A stretch of 64,000 nt of DNA. Origin: Beroe forskalii. Its lineage: Eukaryota; Ctenophora; Nuda; Beroida; Beroidae. The stretch's first letter is position 1. Each line of letters opens with the position of its first letter. The stretch is taken from NCBI GenBank assembly GCA_011033025.1, contig WFMF01000137.1:355142-419141 (forward strand), read 5' to 3'. A program made the translations under genes and the position numbers. Below are positions 14,240 through 54,900 of this stretch, one piece after another. Under the pieces are notes generated by a model. It saw only the letters and a list, made by a program, of their open reading frames with translations. It was not told the DNA's origin and made no database searches.

Positions 14240-14712
14240 GATTGCCATGCAGGCCATTTACCACTTGATAAAACTCCTTGACACCACTTGATAAACTCTT
14301 TGACACCACACACTGATGTAGATAAACTCACAGATAAACACAGATCCAGATCAGCACCACTTGATAAACTCCTTGACAGACTGACATCAGTTTAACGTGT
14401 GACAGATATCACTTGACTACTCGACACTTGACACCACTGATAAACTCCCTGACACAGGAGATAAACTTCACTAATTCCCTGATACCACTTTACAATCTCC
14501 TTGACACCACTTTATAAACTCCTTGACACCACTTGATAAACTCCTTGACGCCACTAAATGAACTCCTTGACACCACTTAATCAACTCCTTGACACCACTT
14601 GATAAACTCCTTGACACCACTTGATAAACTCCTTGACACCACTTGATAAACTCCTTGACACCACTTGATAAACTCCTTGACACCACTTGATAAACTCCTT
14701 GACACCACTAAC
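14240..14712. repeat. 22-bp tandem repeat (CTCCTTGACACCACTTGATAAA)
   Basis: About 15 copies of a 22-bp unit containing CTTGACACCACTTGATAA. The right-hand part (14490-14705) is nearly perfect and the left-hand part is degenerate. The array starts directly at the donor of NOMO exon 18, so it fills the start of the following intron. A similar degenerate CTTCACCTTGACACCAC repeat occurs at about 44510-44580 and 56828-57130. The open frames across it are artefacts of the repeat. Confidence 0.85.
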
Positions 14713-17700
14713 CTGATGTAGTAGTCCCCAGGAACAAGTCCAGTAAGCACCAGAGGCAGACTGTCCAGTTTAACGTTATTCCGGTATCCCTTACTACTCG
14801 ACACTGACACCAGTGTACCGGGAAGCACTTCCTCGCCTGGGAAAGTAAGGGGACATCATCATTAAAATGGTCAATTCATGACATTAAATGGGAATGTGAG
14901 AAGTGTATATTTACAAGTAAAAACGCGTGCAGAGCCTGAACAATTATTCTATTATCACGGATTGAAATGATAATGATTTCAATTAAAACTAATGTCAATG
15001 AGGGATGATTTCTTGGCAGAAACGTTCACATACCTTGTTTTACAACAACAGTTAGTTTACTGAGTTTTACAGCCACAAAATCATGCTCGTTTTCTGTACT
15101 CCTCACAATGTCGTAATCAACCTGCGAAGAGTTTTAATAACGAAGTTAACTTGCAATATAGTCAAAATTGCCCAAAACAGATCGAATTTGAAAGAGAACC
15201 TAGAGTAAGAATGAGTTGAAAACGCAGCTTCTTAACTACAAACAAACCAACCTAAGAATAGTTCAAAACAAAGTTTTGACGTCAAAGATACCAACCTTGC
15301 TAGCCGTAACATGGTATTTGAGATTATTGTGAAGCGGTCCTATGCTGTACTCCCCGCTATCATCAGTTATCTGAGTTAGAGTCAGGTCAATGAAAATAAT
15401 AAACTATATAACGCAGGCTGGATTTCTGTAATTGCTGCAGAAATACAACAAATTCGGCAATTCATCGTGAATCCTGGTATGGTGCAACACTGAACACAAT
15501 CGTTAGGTATGTGCTATTAATTAGTAGTACTTATGTGCTATTAATTATCATAACTTATAACAATGATAACGAATTATCTTATCTGAGTTAGAGTCAGGTC
15601 AGGAGAGTCGGGGGAGGTGAGGGTGATCAGAACCCCACGGACTGGCGGCGAAACGGAACCTGGATGACGCCATTATCAGAGATTAAAATGGTGAATTAAT
15701 GATGTAATTAACCTTGAGAGGATGACGTCATTATCAGAGATTAAAATGGTGAGTTAATGATGTCATTATCAGGGCTTAGAGGGAGGTTATTATTGGTTCT
15801 TCCTTCCTTACCAGAAACAAAAGTCCCGGGGTGGCCACTAAATCTGGGAACTACAGTCGGACACTGCTCATCAGAAACAGTGGTGGTTTGGGAAGCAGGT
15901 GTGAAGAGAAGGCTCTCTGATACCGGCTTTATCAGGTACTCCTGCTGAGGATAAAGTTAACAGGAACAGTCACTAGACATACAGACATACAGTACTGAAC
16001 AGGTAGTAGACAGACACTAAACAGACAGTAGGCAGACAGGTTAAACAGTGGTGGTTTGGGAAGCAGGTGTGAAGAGAAGGCTCTCTGATACCGGCTTTAT
16101 CAGGTACTCCTGCAGGGAACAGTTACAGATTATACAGTTTATTCATTATTCATTCTTGCAAGTGCAGACAGATTGTGGAGTGTGGAGGAATTGGCAGATT
16201 AATGCAGATGTAGACAACTAGACACTAGATTGTAGACATGTAGATACTAGATACTAGACAAACAGCAGAAAGTAAAAACAGTATACAGATAGCAGACAGA
16301 CACTTGACGCACTTGCTGGGGTGGACTCCACATTTGGTAGGTATAAGTCACCACACCATCTTCAGCCTCTCCAGTAGCCACAGTGTTCAGTGTAACCTTC
16401 TCATGGGATTCCATGTTAGTCACACTGACTTGGACGTTAGTGTCAGACTCAGCCAGACGGATAACTCCTGAAATTAAGGTGAAAATATGTGACAAATAGA
16501 GGGATAGAGCAAGGTCATATTCGTCAAGATCCAAAAAGGGAGCTGATCAGTGATCATTCATTTATCATGATTCTAATATAACATCTCTTATAGATTGCAA
16601 AGTTTTAATAAAATATTTGGCTAGTTTTCTGCATCCTTAATCTCATTCCCACTTTCACATCTTACCCTTCAAAAGATGGTGAGTAGCAGAAAGTGTCAGA
16701 GTTTCTCCTCGAGTGGTATCAAACTCGTATTTATCCTGTTCGAACTTGTGACAAGCGTAAGGTACCAGACTGTATACTCCCGGTTTCTTCAGACAAAACC
16801 TGAAATGAGCGGTTTTAAAACGCTGTTTTGAAAAGCGGCTTTGAAAAACAATTTCTCCATTTTGTCTGTGCCTTTTTACTCTTTTTGATTTCCGTACAAA
16901 ACAGACAGTGACATCCCCAATAAGGAATGTAATCTATGGAGAAGCAGGGGATGGGATGTATGGATATGATGCGATTGCCAATTAATAATTCAGCTACTTT
17001 CATAATAGCGTAAGAATTATAATGAATTATTGTTGATGGCGAGTGGCCAATATTTTCCAGTGCGGGACATAACAGAACATTGCACAAAGACACATCTGAG
17101 AGCTTATAGCAACCTCATTGAATGTTGGCGCAAAAGAAGGCACCACCGAGATTCGAACTCGGGATCTCCTGTTTACTAGACAGGCGCTTTAACCAACTAA
17201 GCCATGGCGCCCATGGGTGCGATCCATTATAACCAATCCTTGATCATTATTTGCCGAGACACTTATACGCCGAGCCCATTCCGCACGATAAGAAATTCAA
17301 TTTTCGACCTGGTAATAAGGCAAAATGCAACTCAATTTCTCTCATCAAACTCTCAATTCTTCATTAGCGTAACTGCGTGCTTGAAGCTTGATATTCAACT
17401 GCTATTTATTCATTATAACTTATCAACTTCGGCATATTGCCCGCTTACCGTGTGTTTACAAACAGAAGCGGACAAAATTTATGACGATTTTCGAATCTTC
17501 TGATGATAACATTCTCGTATCAGGGATAACGTTTAACTTCAACCTTAAACGTAACCTGTTCGTGCCCTGTTCGAGACTGAAGGTTCCCTTGCTGGTTTTC
17601 TCTCCCTCTCCTCCCAGGGCCACGGAAAAGTTGAGTTGTGCGGGGTGAGAGACCTCCAACTTCATTATGTAACCTGGTAAAGGGGGGTTTGAGATAAAGA

Positions 17701-20700
17701 TCATTGGGGATTACAAGATAATACAGCATAGCATATTTATTTTACTATTGTACATGTGACGCTACGCGTACTTTGAATAAGTTACGTAAACTGTAGTTAA
17801 TGATTTAAGAAGAAAAGAATGGAAATAACTATGGGACAAAACAATAAAATAATAAATTTAAAAAAGAAAATAATCAGATTAAACTTCATTATGTAACCAC
17901 TCTGTTCAAAGAGGGGTACCTCTGTCTCCTCCTCCACGACCACGCTCATTTCCGTTTCCTTCCAGCACCACTCAGCGTACTCAACTACCACCTAACGATA
18001 AAGGGTAATTCAAAAGTTATAGGTTCGTTATTCGTAGCCCCTTTTCTTCATTCAAAAGTGTAAAAATCTTTGCTGGATTTTCATTATTGATACTTTCATA
18101 GTTAGGAAGGAGAACCTAGACGCTTTATTGTCAACATATATTCAAACAATTTTGTTTATGGAGTTCCATGGTAAAATTCGCTTACCTTGTATTCCCCAGG
18201 AAGTAGGCTGTCAATTTCCCAGGCCCCATCCACCACACTCGCAGTTGCTACAGAGGGTCCAGTAACCTGTATAAGTGAGGACTGAAGGTGCTTTCTAAAT
18301 ATTTGAATAGCCATATCCATTTGAAATGTTCTAAAAACCACATAATTGATCTAAAAATTTGAACCATATTTGACATAGAAAGATTTTCAGCATTCATGAA
18401 TATTTCACTGTTGGAAATTAAGACTTTTTGAGTTATACTCTAGGAAATAACAGGGATGGGTCACTTTCTGACCTGCGATTTATTTCATATTATGGGATGT
18501 GAAATTAGAGATAAACTTATACATTCAGACATGAAAAACCCATAAAGATCACAGTGTAAAATAATCGACATCATCTACAATTCATCTGAAGATAAGAGAT
18601 AATAAGTGTCATTTCCATGATTCAATAAAAACGGATACAATATGTACATGGGTCATTTCGATATCATGTAGTACAAAATATATGAGGTAACAATTTTTAC
18701 CACATTACATGCACACGAAGAGATATTCGACCACATCCTGAAAACATGCAAGGAATGCGATGGTTGAATGAACAATTTGATGATATTGGGGACATAGCTG
18801 CCGAACTTTGAAAAAAATCCGTTCGGAGGTCATATGGCGCCCTCCCAAAAGGAAGGCATAAGTGGGCGCCATCCCAAAAAAGAGGGCAGTTCGGCAGCTA
18901 TGATATTGGGAAAAGTCATGTTTCAAGAGAAAGTACTTTTCGTTCAAGGGGGATGCCCGATTATTAAACTAATAAAACCTGAACGGCGCCATCTGGGGGA
19001 GTAACTAGAGTTATTGTGTCAGTGTCAGGGTCAGGCGAGCTGTTGAATACCTGAAATCGTGTTAAAATTGTGTGAAGATAAATCGAGGATAAATCGCAAA
19101 TATTAATTGAGGGATAATAAATCTGACATCGAAGTTTCATAATAGATGATCGGCATAAGAACTTATAGTATCTCAGGAATTTGGTATTTCTTAGAACAGC
19201 AAAACATAGATTGCCGTGACAGATCGCTAACAGAACATACACAAGGCAGCAGCAAAATTCAGCTTATTGAGCCCAAAACTGCAAAGTTTCAGAATCTCAT
19301 GAAAATGAATACATCCTCCAGTGGTCATCCAACTTTTCCACTCCCACCCCACTCCCCCTTTTTCCACTCCCACTCCCCCTCACCCACTCGTCCAGTAACC
19401 TGTATCTTGACAGCACTGCAATCCCCTCCAATGCACTTGACACTCCCCCTCAACTTAGCCAGCCCCTGATGAAACTCCACATCATGTTTGGGAATGTTGG
19501 TTATCTCCACTGAGACTTTCTCCGGGAGGAGTCGGAGACCGTCACGGTATTCCTGAGCACCGATAAGACTTTCTAGAGTGTAGCTACCTGTGGGAGGGGT
19601 AATTGGGAATTAAGGGACTAAGGGAGGTACCGATAAGACTTACTAGAGTGTAGCTTCCTGAAAGAGGGAGAATTGTACTTTGTAGGGGTCGGAAGAAACT
19701 ATGAGCTGGGATTTGTCAATGAAGAAACAAGGCATTTTAACCTATCATAAGACTTCCTAGAGAGGAGCTGCCTGCGAGAGGGGGTTTGAGTGGTATTCTA
19801 TAATTGGAGAGAATTGAATTTGAGCACATTTGCATTGATAAGATCCGGTCTTTTAAAATCTTTAAAAGTTTAAAATAATGATCCTTTCACCAAAACGGCA
19901 AAGCTCACTAAAAGAATTTGAGTAAGCCAAAGGAATAAATTTAAAGAAAAAAACAAAACAAAAATCACTCACCAGGTGAGACTTTGAAGCAGAAAGCCCC
20001 ATTCGCATCAGTACTTGTCGGCACCAACTCAGCGTTACTTTCCTCACTACTGGCAGGTCTTAGACCCACTTTCCGCTGTCCGAGGGGGCAGGGCCGAGGG
20101 GGGAGGGGATGCCATGTGAACCACTCCACAGAGCTGGTAGGCGTGGGCCGAGATTTCAGGAAGAACGGGGTTAAGAAATGATTATTAAGGTCGGTATTAT
20201 TTTTAAAAACAGGAATATTATTCTGTTCCATTAACTCATAAAGGCCGAAATGAATTTGGATGAAAACGGAATACATGGCAAATCCGAGTACAGTAACACG
20301 AAGATTTCCCTAAAATTTTCCTAAAATTCTCGGAAATTCCCTAGATTTCTCCGGAAAATCGAGGGACTTAGCCCCTTACCAGGAAGAACGGGGTTGTTAG
20401 GTGAGATATTGAGGATCTGGGGGTTGAAGTAGAAACCCCTCAGTTTAGGGGTTACTTCGTACTTCCCACTCGTTACGTTGCTCAACTCAAACTGTCCTTC
20501 AGCGTCTGTTACAGATACTTTGTCTCCTGAAAAACGTGTTTTCAATCAAAGTGAGTCAAGGATGATCATGGGAAGAATTTATTTCCTTTCCAGCTACAAA
20601 AAGACGACAGAACAGCAATCTTGATAGGAATATTTTTTCCCTCCCCAATCGCTTTTTGAATTTCATTCACTTTTGGGAATCTGAAATTTGGTGAAATTTA

Positions 20701-22657
20701 TGAAGTCTGTTGCAGATACTCTGTCTCCTGAAACATTTGTTGTCAATCAAATTAGACCGGGTGTCTTCCTTGGGGCGACGCCTCTACGCCTGGGGGAATG
20801 GCTAGATCTCCCGCAGATCCAACCCCCTTTCAGAAAGTTAGTAGTAGTTATCAACGTATCAGGGAGGCCAAGGGAAAATTTGCCCTTATTCAATCAAGAC
20901 ACAGGCCAACCATGTGAGAAGTTGAGCTTACCGTTTACATAGATGTTGACTCCAGGAAGAGGCTTGCCATTCTCCACAGCATCCAGCACAACTCCTATAA
21001 CAGCGAACAAATATGTAGTGAACAAGTCGTCTCAAATAGGAGCTATTGTACAAGGTGGTGCCAAGAAACTGATTAAATTTCAGGTGTTGTTTAAATTCGG
21101 TTTCTGTAGTATAAATTTCAGAAGTTTGATGTTCAGCTTTGTAAGCAGATCTGAATTAACTTTATAACACTATAACAGCCAATCGGTTAAATGCTATTGT
21201 CTTTTGCAATCACCCAAATAAATCCATTAAAACTCCACTTGAAACTGTACTGACCTATAACAGCGAATCCGTTGACAGTGAACGCCTCGTTTAGTAACAA
21301 GGTATCACTAATCACATCAAATGTCAGCTCATTGGGTGATACATCGAATGTACTGTGTTCTGATTGGTAGTGAGGAGTAATCTTGTAGCTGCCTGGTGCC
21401 AGAGAAGGTTTATTTCGTTTATTTCGTTTACCTTCGGAAAATTAACCTCTGGGGATCGAAATTTCGGGGGTTCGAAAATGTAGGACAGCGGAACTTTGGC
21501 AGACAGGAAGAACGCCTTAAGGCACAGACTGGAAACGAAAGTGGAAGTGGAACAAAAACGGAAGCGGAAGGGGAAACGGAAATTATTTGCAATTCATGTT
21601 TCTTGTAAAATATATCTAACATACCACTCCCACTCACCTGGGGCAAGAGAGGAAAGGAGTAGACCCCACTGGAATCACTGACCACCTTACATCTCCCCCG
21701 CTCACTCTTCACCTCCTGACACCCCTCAATCACCAGCATGGTGTTGTCACCTGGTGTCAGTGGTGTCAAGTAGAACTCAACACCGGCTATCGGCTGTCCA
21801 GCGCTCTGCACACTTCCTCGTACATCGTACGATATGACAACAAACGGTTCGGAAATATGGTGGTTTTCTTCACCCACAGTTATCGAAGTGGTCGGGTTTT
21901 CCATCTTCCAGTTTGGGTGTGAGAGCGATATCGTGTAGGCGCCACTCAGAACTTTGGGTATAGAAAACACCCCCGAAACAGTCTTTACATGCTGCTGACC
22001 CCCTTTCTCATCCCCCAACGCAACACTGACCCCTGTGGGGCCCACATTAAGTCCCTTGCTAACCACACTACCCGTCACTGTGAAACCCTCAAACACAAAG
22101 TTCAAATCCTCGCCCTTCGAGCACGGATCTGTCTGTCCGTCTATGTCGAGGAGTATTTCGGACGGAGCGAAGGTCCAGCCGGACGGGGGAGGACGCGGAC
22201 GGAAACCCGTCCTTTGGTGTAGAGCAGGGAGGAGGAAGTAGCCGTTGTGAGGCGCGCACTCAGTGCTCTCTTTCAAGATGCCGTCAGTGCTGAACACTCC
22301 TACTTTCACCTGGGGAGGGTAGGGTATTAGGATTTCCGATAGAGATTTAAAGTGTCTCTGCAGATAATGAAAAAAATTATCTAGGTTTTTAGTACTAGAT
22401 GTGATGTTAAATTATCCCAGGAAACAAAGAAAAAAAGGGGTATATCATTCATTAACTGCTAGCGCTCTCAGCATTTCCAAATCAATATTTTGGACAACTG
22501 ATCCTCAAATATTTCTTTCCCAGCGTCCCTACCTCTGAGAAGGGTATCTTGTGGTGGACTTGATAAAACCACCACAGACCACCACATCTCCTTCACTGTG
22601 AGCTAATGTGAGGAAGGTGAGGAGGAGGGTTAGGAGTTCTGGTAGCTGATGGGACAT
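14713..22657 (-). CDS. NOMO: NOMO (nodal modulator), 18 exons found, C-terminus not found
   Basis: NOMO is an ER membrane glycoprotein of stacked Ig-like/carboxypeptidase-regulatory-like domains that acts with TMEM147 and Nicalin in the multipass translocon. Exon 1 starts with an ATG at 22657 and a signal peptide (LPELLTLLLTFLTLAHS), then VCGGFIKS. Exons: 22533-22657, 21638-22309, 21255-21392, 20932-20994, 20380-20526, 19973-20156, 19400-19587, 18979-19050, 18186-18266, 17898-17991, 17556-17673, 16666-16799, 16313-16467, 15812-15941, 15583-15641, 15296-15370, 15034-15121, 14713-14836. They follow the family order (ECAPHNGYF; DANGAFCFK; EWCWKE; RFCLKKPGVYSL; DDSGEYSIGPLH; LVPGDYY). That is about 880 residues against about 1,200 in vertebrates; the last third is missing. 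Junctions 1/2 and 2/3 and points inside exons 2 and 6 are off frame, mostly at C runs, suggesting sequence errors. Several introns have repeated edges (see findings). Confidence 0.9.
16044..16113 (-). repeat. Partial copy of NOMO exon 14 with its acceptor
   Basis: 70 bp are nearly identical to 15876-15945 (5' part of exon 14 and its acceptor), placed 168 bp upstream in gene direction. The copy keeps a functional-looking acceptor (CCTGCAG) and the same frame (EYLIKPVSESLF) but runs into TAA right after the duplicated part. Use of this acceptor would therefore truncate the protein. It is either a decoy exon or neutral duplication debris. Confidence 0.8.
17138..17211 (-). tRNA. tRNA-Thr (AGT anticodon)
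   Basis: A complete cloverleaf reads from 17211 to 17138. The acceptor stem GGCGCCA pairs with TGGTGCC (one G-T pair), the D arm contains the A box TGGCTTAGTTGG, and the anticodon stem-loop CCTGTCTAGTAAACAGG has anticodon AGT. The B box is GTTCGAATC and the discriminator is T. CTTCTTTTG follows, giving a T-run terminator for RNA polymerase III. It has no intron and lies within NOMO intron 11 (between 16799 and 17556) on the same strand as NOMO. Confidence 0.97.
18791..18900. mobile_element. 110-bp MITE with 10-bp target duplication
   Basis: The inverted termini contain TAGCTGCCGAACT / AGTTCGGCAGCTA. Flanking 10-bp direct repeats TGATATTGGG lie at 18781-18790 and 18901-18910. A duplication of 9-10 bp is typical of Mutator-like elements. 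It is inserted in NOMO intron 8 and has no coding capacity. Confidence 0.72.
19555..19790 (-). repeat. Three partial copies of the NOMO exon 7 acceptor region
   Basis: The real exon 7 start (CAG, then GTAGCTACACTCTAGAAAG) is at 19587. Diverged copies of the same acceptor and first 25-30 exon bases lie upstream at about 19628-19668 and 19740-19785. Each keeps a GATAAGACTT...TAGCT...CCTG core on the plus strand. The copies become more diverged with distance. Confidence 0.65.
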
Positions 22658-31689: not shown

Positions 31690-33026
31690 CTTGCTGCAAC
31701 ATGCAATATATTGCGCGCGCGTCTTGCTGACGTGCTGCATGACGCGCGCGTCTTGCTGACGTGCAGCATTGCGCGCGCGTCTTGCTGACGTGCAGCATTG
31801 CGCGCGCGTCTTGCTGACGTGCAGCATTGCGCGCGCGTCTTGCTGACGTGCAGCATTGCGCGCGCGTCTTGCTGACGAGCAGCATTGCGCGCGCGTCTTG
31901 CTGACGTGCAGCATTGCGCGCGCGTCTTGCTGACGTGCAGCATTGCGCGCGCGTCTTGCTGACGTGCAGCATTGCGCGCGCGTCTTGCTGACGTGCAGCA
32001 TTGCGTGCAGTTCTTGCTGACGTGCAGCATTGCGCAAGCGTCTTGCTGACGTGCAGCATTGCGCGCGCGTCTTGCTGACGTGCAGCATTGCGCGCGCGTC
32101 TTTCTGACGTGCAGCATTGCGCGCGCGTCTTACTGACGTGCAGCATTGCGCGCGCGTCTTGCTGACGTGCAGCATTGCGCGCGCGTCTTGCTGACGTGCA
32201 GCATTGCGCGCGCGTCTTGCTGACGTGCAGCATTGCGCGCGCGTCTTGCTGACGTGCAGCATTGCGCGCGCGTCTTGCTGACGTGCAGCATTGCGCGCGC
32301 GTCTTGCTGACGTGCAGCATTGCGCGCGTGTCTTGCTGACGTACAGCATTGCACGCGCGTCTTGCTGACGTGCAGCATTGCGCGCGCGTCTTGCTGACGT
32401 GCAGCATTGCGCGCGCGTCTCGCTGACGTGCAGCATTGCGCGCGCGTCTTGCAGCATTGCGCGCGCGTCTTGCTGACGTGCAGCATTGCGCGCGCGTCTT
32501 GCTGCCGTGCAGCATTGCGCGCGCGTCTTGCTGCCGTGCAGCATTGCGCGCGCGTCTTGCTGCCGTGCAGCATTGCGCGCGCGTCTTGCTGACGTGCAGC
32601 ATTGCGCGCGCGTCTTGCTGACGTGCAGCATTGCGCGCGCGTCTTGCTGACGTGCAGCATTGCGCGCGCGTCTTGCTGACGTGCAGCATTGCGCGCGCGT
32701 CTTGCTGACGTGCAGCATTGCACGCGCGTCTTGCTGACGTGCAGCATTGCACGCGCGTCTTGCTGACGTGCAGCATTGCACGCGCGTCTTGCTGACGTGC
32801 AGCATTGCACGCGCGTCTTGCTGACGTGCAGCAATGCGCGCGTCTTGCTTACGTGCAGCAATGCGCGCGTCTTGCTTACGTGCAGCAATGCGCGCGCGTC
32901 TTGCTTACGTGCAGCAATGCGCGCGCGTCTTGCTTACGTGCAGCAATGCGCGCGCGTCTTGCTTACGTGCAGCAATGCGCGAGCGTCTTGCTTACGTGCA
33001 GCAATGCGCGAGCGTCTTGCTTACAT
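31690..33026. repeat. 29-bp GC-rich satellite, array A (about 45 copies)
   Basis: The unit is GCGCGCGCG followed by TCTTGCTGACGTGCAGCATT. Units are nearly identical, with a subtype change at about 32822 to TCTTGCTTACGTGCAGCAAT and to GCGCGTC units 27 bp long. Because 29 is not a multiple of 3 and the unit has no stop on the minus strand, long frames of up to 392 residues (repeating 29-residue peptide MLHVSKTRAQCC...) run through it in several frames. These are almost certainly not genes. CpG density is extreme for this AT-rich region. Confidence 0.95.
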
Positions 33027-49472: not shown

Positions 49473-50213
49473 GACTAGAATCTAACAACAGAAATAGTAA
49501 GATATTAATTAGACTTTTCAAAACACATTTTAGTCACTTATCTTTGGGATACAAATACAGTCATCTTTGTACAGTCAAGCCACAAAACTTTCCAACAGCT
49601 CTTTTTAGTCACAAAATATTATCAATTGAATTTTGAAGCATTAAGTTGTGAACAGGAAATCAAAAACCTATCAAAAACATATTGTACTGATTGATTAAAA
49701 TTCTGCTGGAGCATAATGATCAGTTACATTAGACAAAGAAAAATACATAAACAAAAGAATTGCTGCTTAGGGGGTTCATGAGGAAACCACAAATTTGAGA
49801 TAGGAGTTTTCCATGATGATCATGACAACTACCAACATTTTAACCACAAATTTGAGATAGGAGTTTTCTATGATGGTCATGACAACTACCAACATTTTAA
49901 TGGTTTCCTAAGCCTGCATAGGCCTGTGTACAGGGTATACATGTTAAGCAATTGCATGGTCTTGGGTCCAAAGGTCCAAAACTATCCATGTGACGTCTCA
50001 AAGCAAAAATTTTACAAAAGGAGATAAAAATAAAAACAAAGGATTTTAATATGCACATCAACATTTTTAAAAAACGAAAAAACTACTTCAAACCTCCACC
50101 CACGGATGAGAATGAATTAGAAATAGCTGAATTCTGAATATCAAAACCTGGAAAAAAAGGAATGTAAACCCGAGCAATAATTGATAACTTGAAAAATACC
50201 ATGCTCATTAAAA

Positions 50214-53877: not shown

Positions 53878-54900
53878 TGCGCGCGCGTTTCTTGCTGATG
53901 TGACGCACAACCATGCACGCGCGTCTTGCTGACACGCAGCCGTGCACGTGCGTCTTGCTGACGTGCAGCCGTGCACGCGCGTCTTGCTGACGCGCAACCG
54001 TGCACGTGCGTCCTGCTGACGCGCAGCTGTGCACGCGCGTCTTGCTGACGCACAGCCTTGCGCGCGCGTCTTGCTGACGTGCAGCATCGCGCGCGCGTCT
54101 TGCTGACGTGCAGCATTGCGCGCGCGTCTTGCTGACGTGCAGCATTGCGCGCGCGTCTTGCTGACGTGCAGCATTGCGCGCGCGTCTTGCTGACGTGCAG
54201 CATTTGCAGCATTGCGCGCGCGTCTTGCTGACGTGCAGCATTGCGCGCGCGTCTTGCTGACGTGCAGCATTTCGCGCGCGTCTTGCTGACGTGCAGCATT
54301 GCGCGCGCGTCTTGCTGACGTGCAGCATTGCGCGCGCGTCTTGCTGACGTGCAGCATTGCGCGCGCGTCTTGCTGACGTGCAGCATTGCGCGTGCGTCTT
54401 GCTGACGTGCAGCATTGCGCGCGCGTCTTGCTGACGTGCAGCATTGCGCGCGCGTCCTGCTGACGTGCAGCATTGCGCGCGCGTCTTGCTGACGTGCAGC
54501 ATTGCGCGCGTCTTGCTGACGTGCAGCATTGTGCGCGCGTCTTGCTGACGTGCAGCATTGCGCGCGCGTCTTGCTGACGTGCAGCATTGCGCGCGCGTCT
54601 TGCTGACGTGCAGCATTGCGCGCGTCTTGCTGACGTGCAGCATTGCGCGCGCGTCTTGCTGACATGCAGCATTGCGCGCGTCTTGCTGACGTGCAGCATT
54701 GCGCGCGTCTTGCTGACGTGCAGCATTGCGCGCGCGTCTTGCTGACGTGCAGCATTGCGCGCGCGTCTTGCTGACGTGCAGCATTGCGCGCGCGTCTCGC
54801 TGACGTGCAGCATTGCGCGCGCGTCTTGCTGACGTGCAGCATTGCGCGCGCGTCTTGCTGACGTGCAGCATTGCGCGCGCGTCTTGTCGACGCGCAGCAT
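53878..54900. repeat. 29-bp GC-rich satellite, array B (about 35 copies)
   Basis: Same unit (GCGCGCGCG + TCTTGCTGACGTGCAGCATT) and orientation as array A, in the paralogous position. The left end (53878-54090) is diverged (GTGCACGCGCGTCTTGCTGACG). Several 27-bp units (GCGCGTC) are dispersed through the array. Long minus-strand frames of up to 377 residues are repeat artefacts. Confidence 0.95.

Follow-up and report, generated by a model that had tools for sequence, protein, structure and literature searches.

Introns in several genes of the ctenophore Beroe forskalii carry one and the same short exonic sequence at their two ends, in register with the reading frame, and this property is linked to the lack of an acceptable GT-AG border in about half of them. 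They are probably young introns that arose by insertion with duplication of the target, and that are removed by splicing tolerant of odd 5′ sites. Five are found in NOMO, within the window considered here (64,000 nucleotides of contig WFMF01000137.1), and others in CCT, kinesin and myosin genes. The observation touches two long-standing questions, namely the origin of introns and whether a newborn intron requires GT-AG.

Table 1. Features of the window. For introns (a) to (e), the length is that required by the protein, which equals the spacing of the repeat copies.
Feature	Coordinates	Strand	Length (bp)	In-register run (bases)	Details
NOMO gene, part within window	14712..22310	−			15 introns counted, 14838-21637
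Intron (a)	20995..21254	−	260	14	GT-AG; repeat copies 21254-21267 and 20994-21007
Intron (b)	20157..20379	−	223	16	in register GT-TG only; 16-bp repeats 20380-20395 and 20157-20172
Intron (c)	18267..19399	−	1133	16	GT-AG; 16-bp repeats 19390-19405 and 18257-18272, AG|GT within
Intron (d)	17674..17897	−	224	17	GT-AG; 17-bp repeats 17882-17898 and 17658-17674
Intron (e)	15371..15582	−	212	23	AT-AG the sole border with AG; 23-bp repeats 15579-15601 and 15367-15389
71-bp direct repeat	15875..16113	−			copies 16043-16113 and 15875-15945, about 97 bp enclosed
Non-coding 75-bp insertion	49528..49602	+	75	10	10-bp in-register repeat

The hand-joined NOMO translation, with all five inserts taken out, matched human NOMO2 (9c7v_B) with an E-value of 7.4e-151. 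The runs at the edges of the five introns (table 1) compare with 1–6 bases for the other ten introns at 14.8–21.7 kb. An earlier note on this DNA had located the repeats of (a) to (d) correctly and that of (e) one base off, with its first copy at 15368-15390. It had placed every repeat exactly at a splice boundary; judged by the reading frame this holds, but in (b) and (e) no placement yields a GT-AG border, so the ordinary splice sites that it assumed are missing from these two, and an acceptable placement is missing from about half of all edge-repeat introns. The AG|GT that it saw in the repeat of (c) does give this intron GT-AG borders. It had also divided (c) into introns 7 and 8 with exon 8 between them, for which the NOMO2 alignment has no need; the alignment shows a 4-residue gap beside the junction, and a cassette exon may stand here in place of one single intron.

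Edge repeats were then counted in 107 introns from three conserved gene families (kinesin, myosin and CCT), leaving out adjacent pairs with a profile gap of more than 14 positions, a distance outside 25–4000 bp or missing flanks. In-register repeats of 10–17 bp were present in 5 of the 107, where about 0.2 were expected: among 11 342 mismatched donor/acceptor pairs from other genes, 0.17% reached 10 bp or more, and the longest run was 13 (frequency 9e-5). In this sample the repeats thus stand well above background, and the footprint proposed in the note, that of an insertion duplicating a short exonic stretch, is borne out by a register far beyond chance. NOMO, with 5 of 15 introns in the window (Fisher p = 0.0025), is enriched but not unique, the process being a wider one. 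A further scan for spliced frames, which is biased to open frames, added CCT-gamma (two copies), missed by the filter of the 107-intron set, together with a NOMO intron from a different contig. A candidate on NOMO contig C290 (NOMO_g, 14 bp repeat, 213 bp) was dropped as doubtful; homology stops at the first repeat copy with an in-frame stop directly after, and the gene may end there. Overall, the repeat-flanked units measure 133–1133 bp and the repeats 10–23 bp. Decayed edge repeats gave no clear excess between fresh and background cases (score of at least 7 in 8 of the 107 introns against 3.3 expected, five of these being the clear cases), so no gradation from fresh to worn introns can be seen. 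In an aldehyde dehydrogenase gene (C1051, outside the 107), four introns had runs of only 4–5.

The bodies of these introns do not point to one source. An all-against-all comparison of ten inserts yielded nothing beyond weak matches (best E 0.001 over 31 bp), with no common family or shared ends, which agrees with the note in arguing against a single introner family. As far as the genome searches went, most insert bodies were single-copy. Introns (a), (b), (d) and (e) contain inserts of about 190–250 bp of mostly unique sequence, and the bodies of (a), (b), (d), CCT-zeta and CCT-eta matched only themselves among the 40 of 362 candidates that were scored. Plain tandem duplication, which the note had offered as one route, does not fit: only 14–23 bp are repeated in the NOMO introns, and across the set the repeat ends after 10–23 bp, not extending to the whole unit. 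Outside coding sequence, the 75-bp insertion at 49528 has an empty site in a paralogous stretch near 30.5 kb that lacks it.

How the inserts arrived is less certain, and transposition or retroposition of low-copy or worn elements throughout, instead of staggered-break repair with filler DNA, is a serious possibility, albeit one we do not favour. The final 63 bp of the kinesin C664 insert, up to the repeat, recur at 33 further places with 95% identity, and this dispersed element comes with duplications of variable length (11–17 bp), two examined copies carrying their own of 11–12 bp. Likewise, one portion of the kinesin C164 insert belongs to a repeat family that gave 41 other matching rows, many as inverted pairs. 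Against this, the C164 family piece stops short of the insert ends, the body of the myosin C225 insert is a minisatellite, and the five bodies mentioned above matched only themselves among the candidates scored.

The link between edge repeats and splice borders was examined using a GT-AG score and cut-off of 5 devised for this analysis, by which an acceptable in-frame placement is absent from 6 of 12 edge-repeat introns compared with 3 of 112 others (p ~2e-5). Counting in the doubtful NOMO_g makes this 6 of 13, and the 107-intron set alone gives 2 of 5 against 3 of 102 (p = 0.017). GT-AG in exact register occurs in 5 of 13 edge-repeat introns, where simulation predicts 0.79 (P ~0.0007); this excess over random sequence links that subset, at least, with the spliceosome. 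The pair lies at or in the repeat, as AG|G(T), in (a), (c), (d), CCT-eta and myosin C225. U12-type introns have the 5′ consensus ATATCCTT or GTATCCTT. Judged by eye, the AT borders found here (ATAAGA, ATACGC, ATCAAT and ATCCCT) are unlike it, and U12-type introns were set aside as an explanation.

One might suppose that introns lacking an in-register GT-AG use canonical sites nearby, at the price of small changes to the protein. Such cases are described for Daphnia (PMC4202315) and for introners (PMC9860276), and kinesin C164 has a good GT-AG (score 7.53) that would put in three residues. This is nevertheless unlikely as a general solution, since (b), (e), f and CCT-gamma offer no in-frame, stop-free GT-AG within 40 bp plus five codons, and the best placement in CCT-zeta would cost five residues of a conserved segment. 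With its insert taken out, that segment is identical to solved CCT-zeta at 40 of 41 residues, which calls for exact removal. At the CCT-eta (C2) and myosin (C225) junctions, homology was taken from flanking Pfam profile matches and not from a solved-structure alignment. From this continuity of the proteins, we infer that the inserts are removed from the mRNA.

A similarly improbable view is that all the odd inserts, or some of them, broke genes in the assembled haplotype or stem from assembly errors, and are never removed. The NOMO assembly is admittedly imperfect: one part of the gene lies on C178 and the other on C290, a minisatellite marking the break, and the frame slips by one base after 21637 and again near 20.06 kb, so some borders may be mis-assembled. 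Yet flanks, frames and repeats are otherwise clean, and several essential genes are affected. A search of the assembly with 13 joined-flank queries, in which all 16 candidates were scored, turned up no version lacking the intron; CCT-zeta, CCT-eta and NOMO are thus represented there solely by copies that carry inserts. Both inverted copies of CCT-gamma, whose coding sequences differ at 2 of 258 sites, carry the insert. Intron (e) recurs on contig C290 with its acceptor side and most of its body, and the exons that follow it in the window show seven differences from those on C290, all silent. As it is common to two divergent copies, intron (e) is not brand new.

Somatic excision of DNA between the repeats, in the manner of the internal eliminated sequences of ciliates, would explain why about half of the inserts need no splice signal and why no decay series is seen, and a cut at direct repeats that leaves one copy fits the data. 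We consider it very unlikely, because GT-AG is enriched in the remaining inserts and the inserts are present in the assembled DNA. We know of no such somatic DNA-elimination system in animals. Chance repeats in a repeat-rich genome can be dismissed. Direct repeats are indeed common: once tandem arrays were masked, the window contained 25 that were 13 bp or longer and spaced 60–2000 bp apart, whereas 30 first-order Markov simulations gave an average of 2.1 (and 0.6 when the minimum was set at 14 bp). Their mere presence thus proves little, but the mismatched-pair control shows that their register with the introns is not due to chance, which already contradicts this explanation.

Insertion with target duplication, the reading we prefer, would proceed as follows. 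A piece of DNA, mostly of unique sequence but elsewhere a minisatellite or a fragment of a dispersed element, would enter an exon, whether as an inserting element or during the mending of a staggered break, and duplicate 10–23 bp of the target; taking out the insert and one repeat copy would then restore the old mRNA exactly. In (a), (c), (d), CCT-eta and myosin C225, the GT-AG pair would serve the ordinary spliceosome. About half of the cases would also be removed by the spliceosome despite having no GT-AG in register or nearby, probably using the AG present on the 3′ side in most of them and an atypical 5′ site (AT, GA, CT or TT). As the repeats are in register, any cut point within the repeat yields the same mRNA, which buffers an imprecise choice. 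A bolder proposal, which we put forward tentatively and regard as doubtful, is that an animal with GT-AG in its other introns gives birth to introns without usable splice sites that are still removed precisely, every cut within the repeat being equivalent. This could happen via a spliceosome that is nearly indifferent to the 5′ site of an insert bracketed by a direct repeat, or via a separate repeat-guided excision at the RNA or DNA level, with GT-AG acquired later as the repeat wears away.

Parts of this picture have precedents. In Daphnia pulex (PMC4202315), new introns likewise have end direct repeats, put down to staggered breaks; their bodies are unique and AT-rich, a recognized source is missing for most, and the mRNA is restored exactly in most cases. 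Their mean length is 78 bp, and 118 of 120 have GT-AG, whereas the units described here are longer and about half lack GT-AG, which is out of line with that case and counts against our reading. Introners (PMC9860276) resemble our inserts in deriving splice sites partly or wholly from the target duplication and in keeping mRNA length; as described there, they form multi-copy families, earlier ones with 3–9 bp duplications, while the inserts studied here have 10–23 bp duplications and no sequence shared among several introns. Fritillaria and other larvaceans (PMC13326754) provide an animal example of non-GT-AG introns, for which introner activity was proposed as one source, although 95% of their introns break the rule and nearly all other introns tested here admit GT-AG.

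The introner elements of Amoebophrya (PMC7789003) combine non-canonical borders with direct repeats spanning the exon/intron junction, but these are of 3–5 nt and accompany hairpin-forming inverted repeats, in contrast to the 10–23 bp and lack of consistent end-to-end pairing seen here. Nonconventional introns of euglenids (PMC4770533) share variable borders and junction direct repeats, with an 8-nt repeat in a recent gain for which break repair was proposed; stable RNA structure joins their ends. When eight of our ten inserts were folded, end-to-end pairs exceeded the shuffle mean in (a) (13 versus 5.7), CCT-zeta (23 versus 8.4) and C164 (15 versus 5.4), with none in (b), (d), (e) and CCT-eta and 6 versus 7.1 in C664, so such structure does not look like a general feature. 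Rogers and Bendich (PMC11782384) reported 4–30 bp direct repeats near the borders of 213 introns of all classes, searching up to 80 bp around the borders; exact register and mismatched pairs are used here, and 102 of 107 introns fail. Our literature search on neo-introns, within the extent of the sources it covered, found no animal case that combines non-canonical borders with target duplication.

In this genome, a simple in-register repeat test can pick out putative young introns, in clear contrast with older ones. Should transcripts prove that inserts lacking GT-AG are cut out exactly, this would show that an insertion is by itself enough to produce an intron that is tolerated, its splice signals being improved later. 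In NOMO itself, the 71-bp direct repeat in table 1 represents the start of an exon duplicated at the 3′ end of the intron before it.

Direct repeats are common in the window, which has 25 with a length of 13 bp or more where simulated sequence has 2.1, so register was used as the test: the repeat spacing had to equal the intron length exactly. All five NOMO repeats described in the earlier note exist, with the fifth displaced by one base. The in-register identity runs to 14, 16, 16, 17 and 23 bp in the corresponding introns (a–e), and to 1–6 bp in the remaining ten. Neighbouring profile hits in myosin, CCT and kinesin genes provided a comparison sample of 107 introns past filters, within approximately 250 kb of sequence examined in the whole study. 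Runs were 3–7 bp in 102 of these and 10, 10, 11, 15 and 17 bp in the other five. Mismatched donor/acceptor pairs (n = 11 342) reached 10 bp or more in 0.17% of cases, so the scan against background proposed in the earlier note for the whole genome, when run on this sample, yields five introns with 0.18 expected. That note singled out the presence of five in one gene; the NOMO rate (5/15) is indeed higher than that of the other genes (5/107, p = 0.0025), but these carry such introns too.

A second scan looked for repeat pairs of 11 bp or more that leave an open frame once removed. Over 222 kb it covered 202 pairs, gave 68 candidates and added CCT-gamma, in two inverted copies with repeats of 19 and 18 bp, NOMO f on contig C290 (17 bp) and a doubtful NOMO g. 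Insert lengths are indivisible by three in 11 of the 13 edge-repeat introns, and the two multiples of three (kinesin C164 and g) contain in-frame stops. When joined proteins were made by deleting the insert plus one repeat copy, CCT-zeta matched solved CCT-zeta at 40/41 residues, and the junctions of CCT-gamma, kinesin C164, kinesin C664 (65 residues, against KIF3B) and, with a weak match (E 0.0041), NOMO f were ungapped; for g the protein match stops at the repeat. The NOMO exons, joined by hand and translated, align with human NOMO2 (9c7v_B, E 7.4e-151) in two stretches covering all five junctions, with no gap at a, b, d or e and a four-residue gap adjoining c.

Exact-register GT-AG borders are possible in five of the 13 introns (a, c, d, CCT-eta and myosin C225), compared with 0.79 for random repeats (P about 0.0007), an excess that ties this subset to the spliceosome. 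The earlier placement of the NOMO repeats at splice borders holds by reading frame for all five, with exact-register GT-AG in a, c and d and in neither b nor e. A relaxed search admitted GT-AG placements up to 40 bp and five codons away wherever the frame was kept and no stop arose, with donor and acceptor graded by a score and cut-off devised for this analysis. An acceptable placement was found for 109/112 other introns versus 7/13 edge-repeat introns (p = 2.6e-5), or 6/12 leaving out g (p = 1.5e-5); in the 107-intron set alone, 2/5 edge-repeat introns and 3/102 others lacked one (p = 0.017).

Introns without acceptable GT-AG borders, and positions of other features
Feature	Position	Borders or remarks
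NOMO b		GT-TG in register
NOMO e		AT-AG
NOMO f		TT-AG or AT-AG
CCT-zeta		GA-AG
Kinesin C664		AT-AG among others
CCT-gamma		CT-AG
First NOMO intron listed	window 21392–21637	245 bp; frame off by one base under canonical splicing
NOMO frame change	window, about 20060	one-base discrepancy in the assembly, within exon following b
NOMO exon start plus acceptor, repeated in preceding intron	window 19559–19790	three copies
As above	window 20500–20735	two copies
tRNA-Thr (AGT) gene	window 17136–17212	same strand as NOMO, in NOMO intron; 96–99% matches elsewhere in genome
Inverted-repeat (MITE-like) stretch	window 18790–18915	within intron c; one 77% match elsewhere
22-bp minisatellite	window 14260–14710	end of NOMO in window
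Overlap with C290	window, about 14260 to 15542
Segmental duplication	window 28.7–31.1 kb	with 47.9–50.2 kb
Segmental duplication	window 43.6–47.7 kb	with 56.0–61.4 kb
29-bp GC-rich minisatellite	window 31710–33021, 53914–54900
Row of kinesin exon-start copies	C897 41724–44319	upstream of real exon; search rows only

With 40 of 362 candidates scored, the insert bodies of a, b, d, CCT-zeta and CCT-eta matched only themselves, and that of e matched itself and C290. The final 63 bp of the C664 insert, up to the repeat, has 33 other matches at 95%; it is one end of a dispersed element, of which the two copies read (L091 and L092) are near-palindromic and have target duplications of their own (12 bp and about 11 bp). 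The C164 insert includes a piece of a repeat family (41 other matching rows, many as inverted pairs) that stops short of the insert ends. The C225 body is a minisatellite. On contig C897, a paralogous kinesin exon has a match starting where the C164 repeat starts, which makes an intron at that position possible in this paralogue.

The most likely scenario has two steps: element insertion or staggered-break repair would place DNA in an exon, duplicating the target, and the spliceosome would then remove the insert. Where GT-AG is lacking it would use an atypical 5′ site, a choice buffered because any cut inside the repeat would yield identical mRNA. The earlier proposal of intron gain by short exonic duplication fares well for the insertion step, which the anatomy of the loci supports; the source is settled for C664 alone, and there in part. 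For the half without GT-AG, we infer splicing from sequence. Thirteen joined-flank queries found no insert-free copy among the contigs (1134, 216 Mb; 16/16 candidates scored); inserts are thus present in CCT-zeta, CCT-eta and NOMO as assembled. The CCT-gamma insert is common to both copies, whose coding sites differ at 2/258. Window and C290 share the acceptor side and most of the body of e, and two exons compared downstream differ at seven sites with protein unchanged. Together these observations argue that the inserts would do no harm to the product.

Contig C290 holds the C-terminal part of NOMO, including the exons absent from the window; the split may stem from misassembly, from a structural allele or from partial duplication. 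One fragment has a match to eukaryotic SSU rRNA, and the genome is probably that of an animal. The exon starts duplicated with their acceptors in preceding NOMO introns leave decoy acceptors.

Daphnia neo-introns likewise have direct repeats but differ in being GT-AG in 118/120 cases (PMC4202315), and introners draw splice sites from target duplications but form multi-copy families (PMC9860276). Non-canonical introns are the majority in larvaceans (PMC13326754) and Amoebophrya (PMC7789003), whereas they are a minority here; euglenid nonconventional introns combine direct repeats with RNA structure (PMC4770533). Putatively young, repeat-flanked non-GT-AG introns as a minority of an otherwise GT-AG genome did not appear in the literature listings searched, and are a variant of known intron-gain types.

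Insertions with short target duplications also occur outside genes in this genome: alignment of segmental duplicates in the window's non-coding DNA leaves seven well-flanked gaps, and three of these are insertions carrying an in-register repeat of 8 bp or more, one of the three being a plain tandem duplication. The window's segmental duplications (67–95% identity) show both insertions and empty sites, and one minisatellite recurs at two places.
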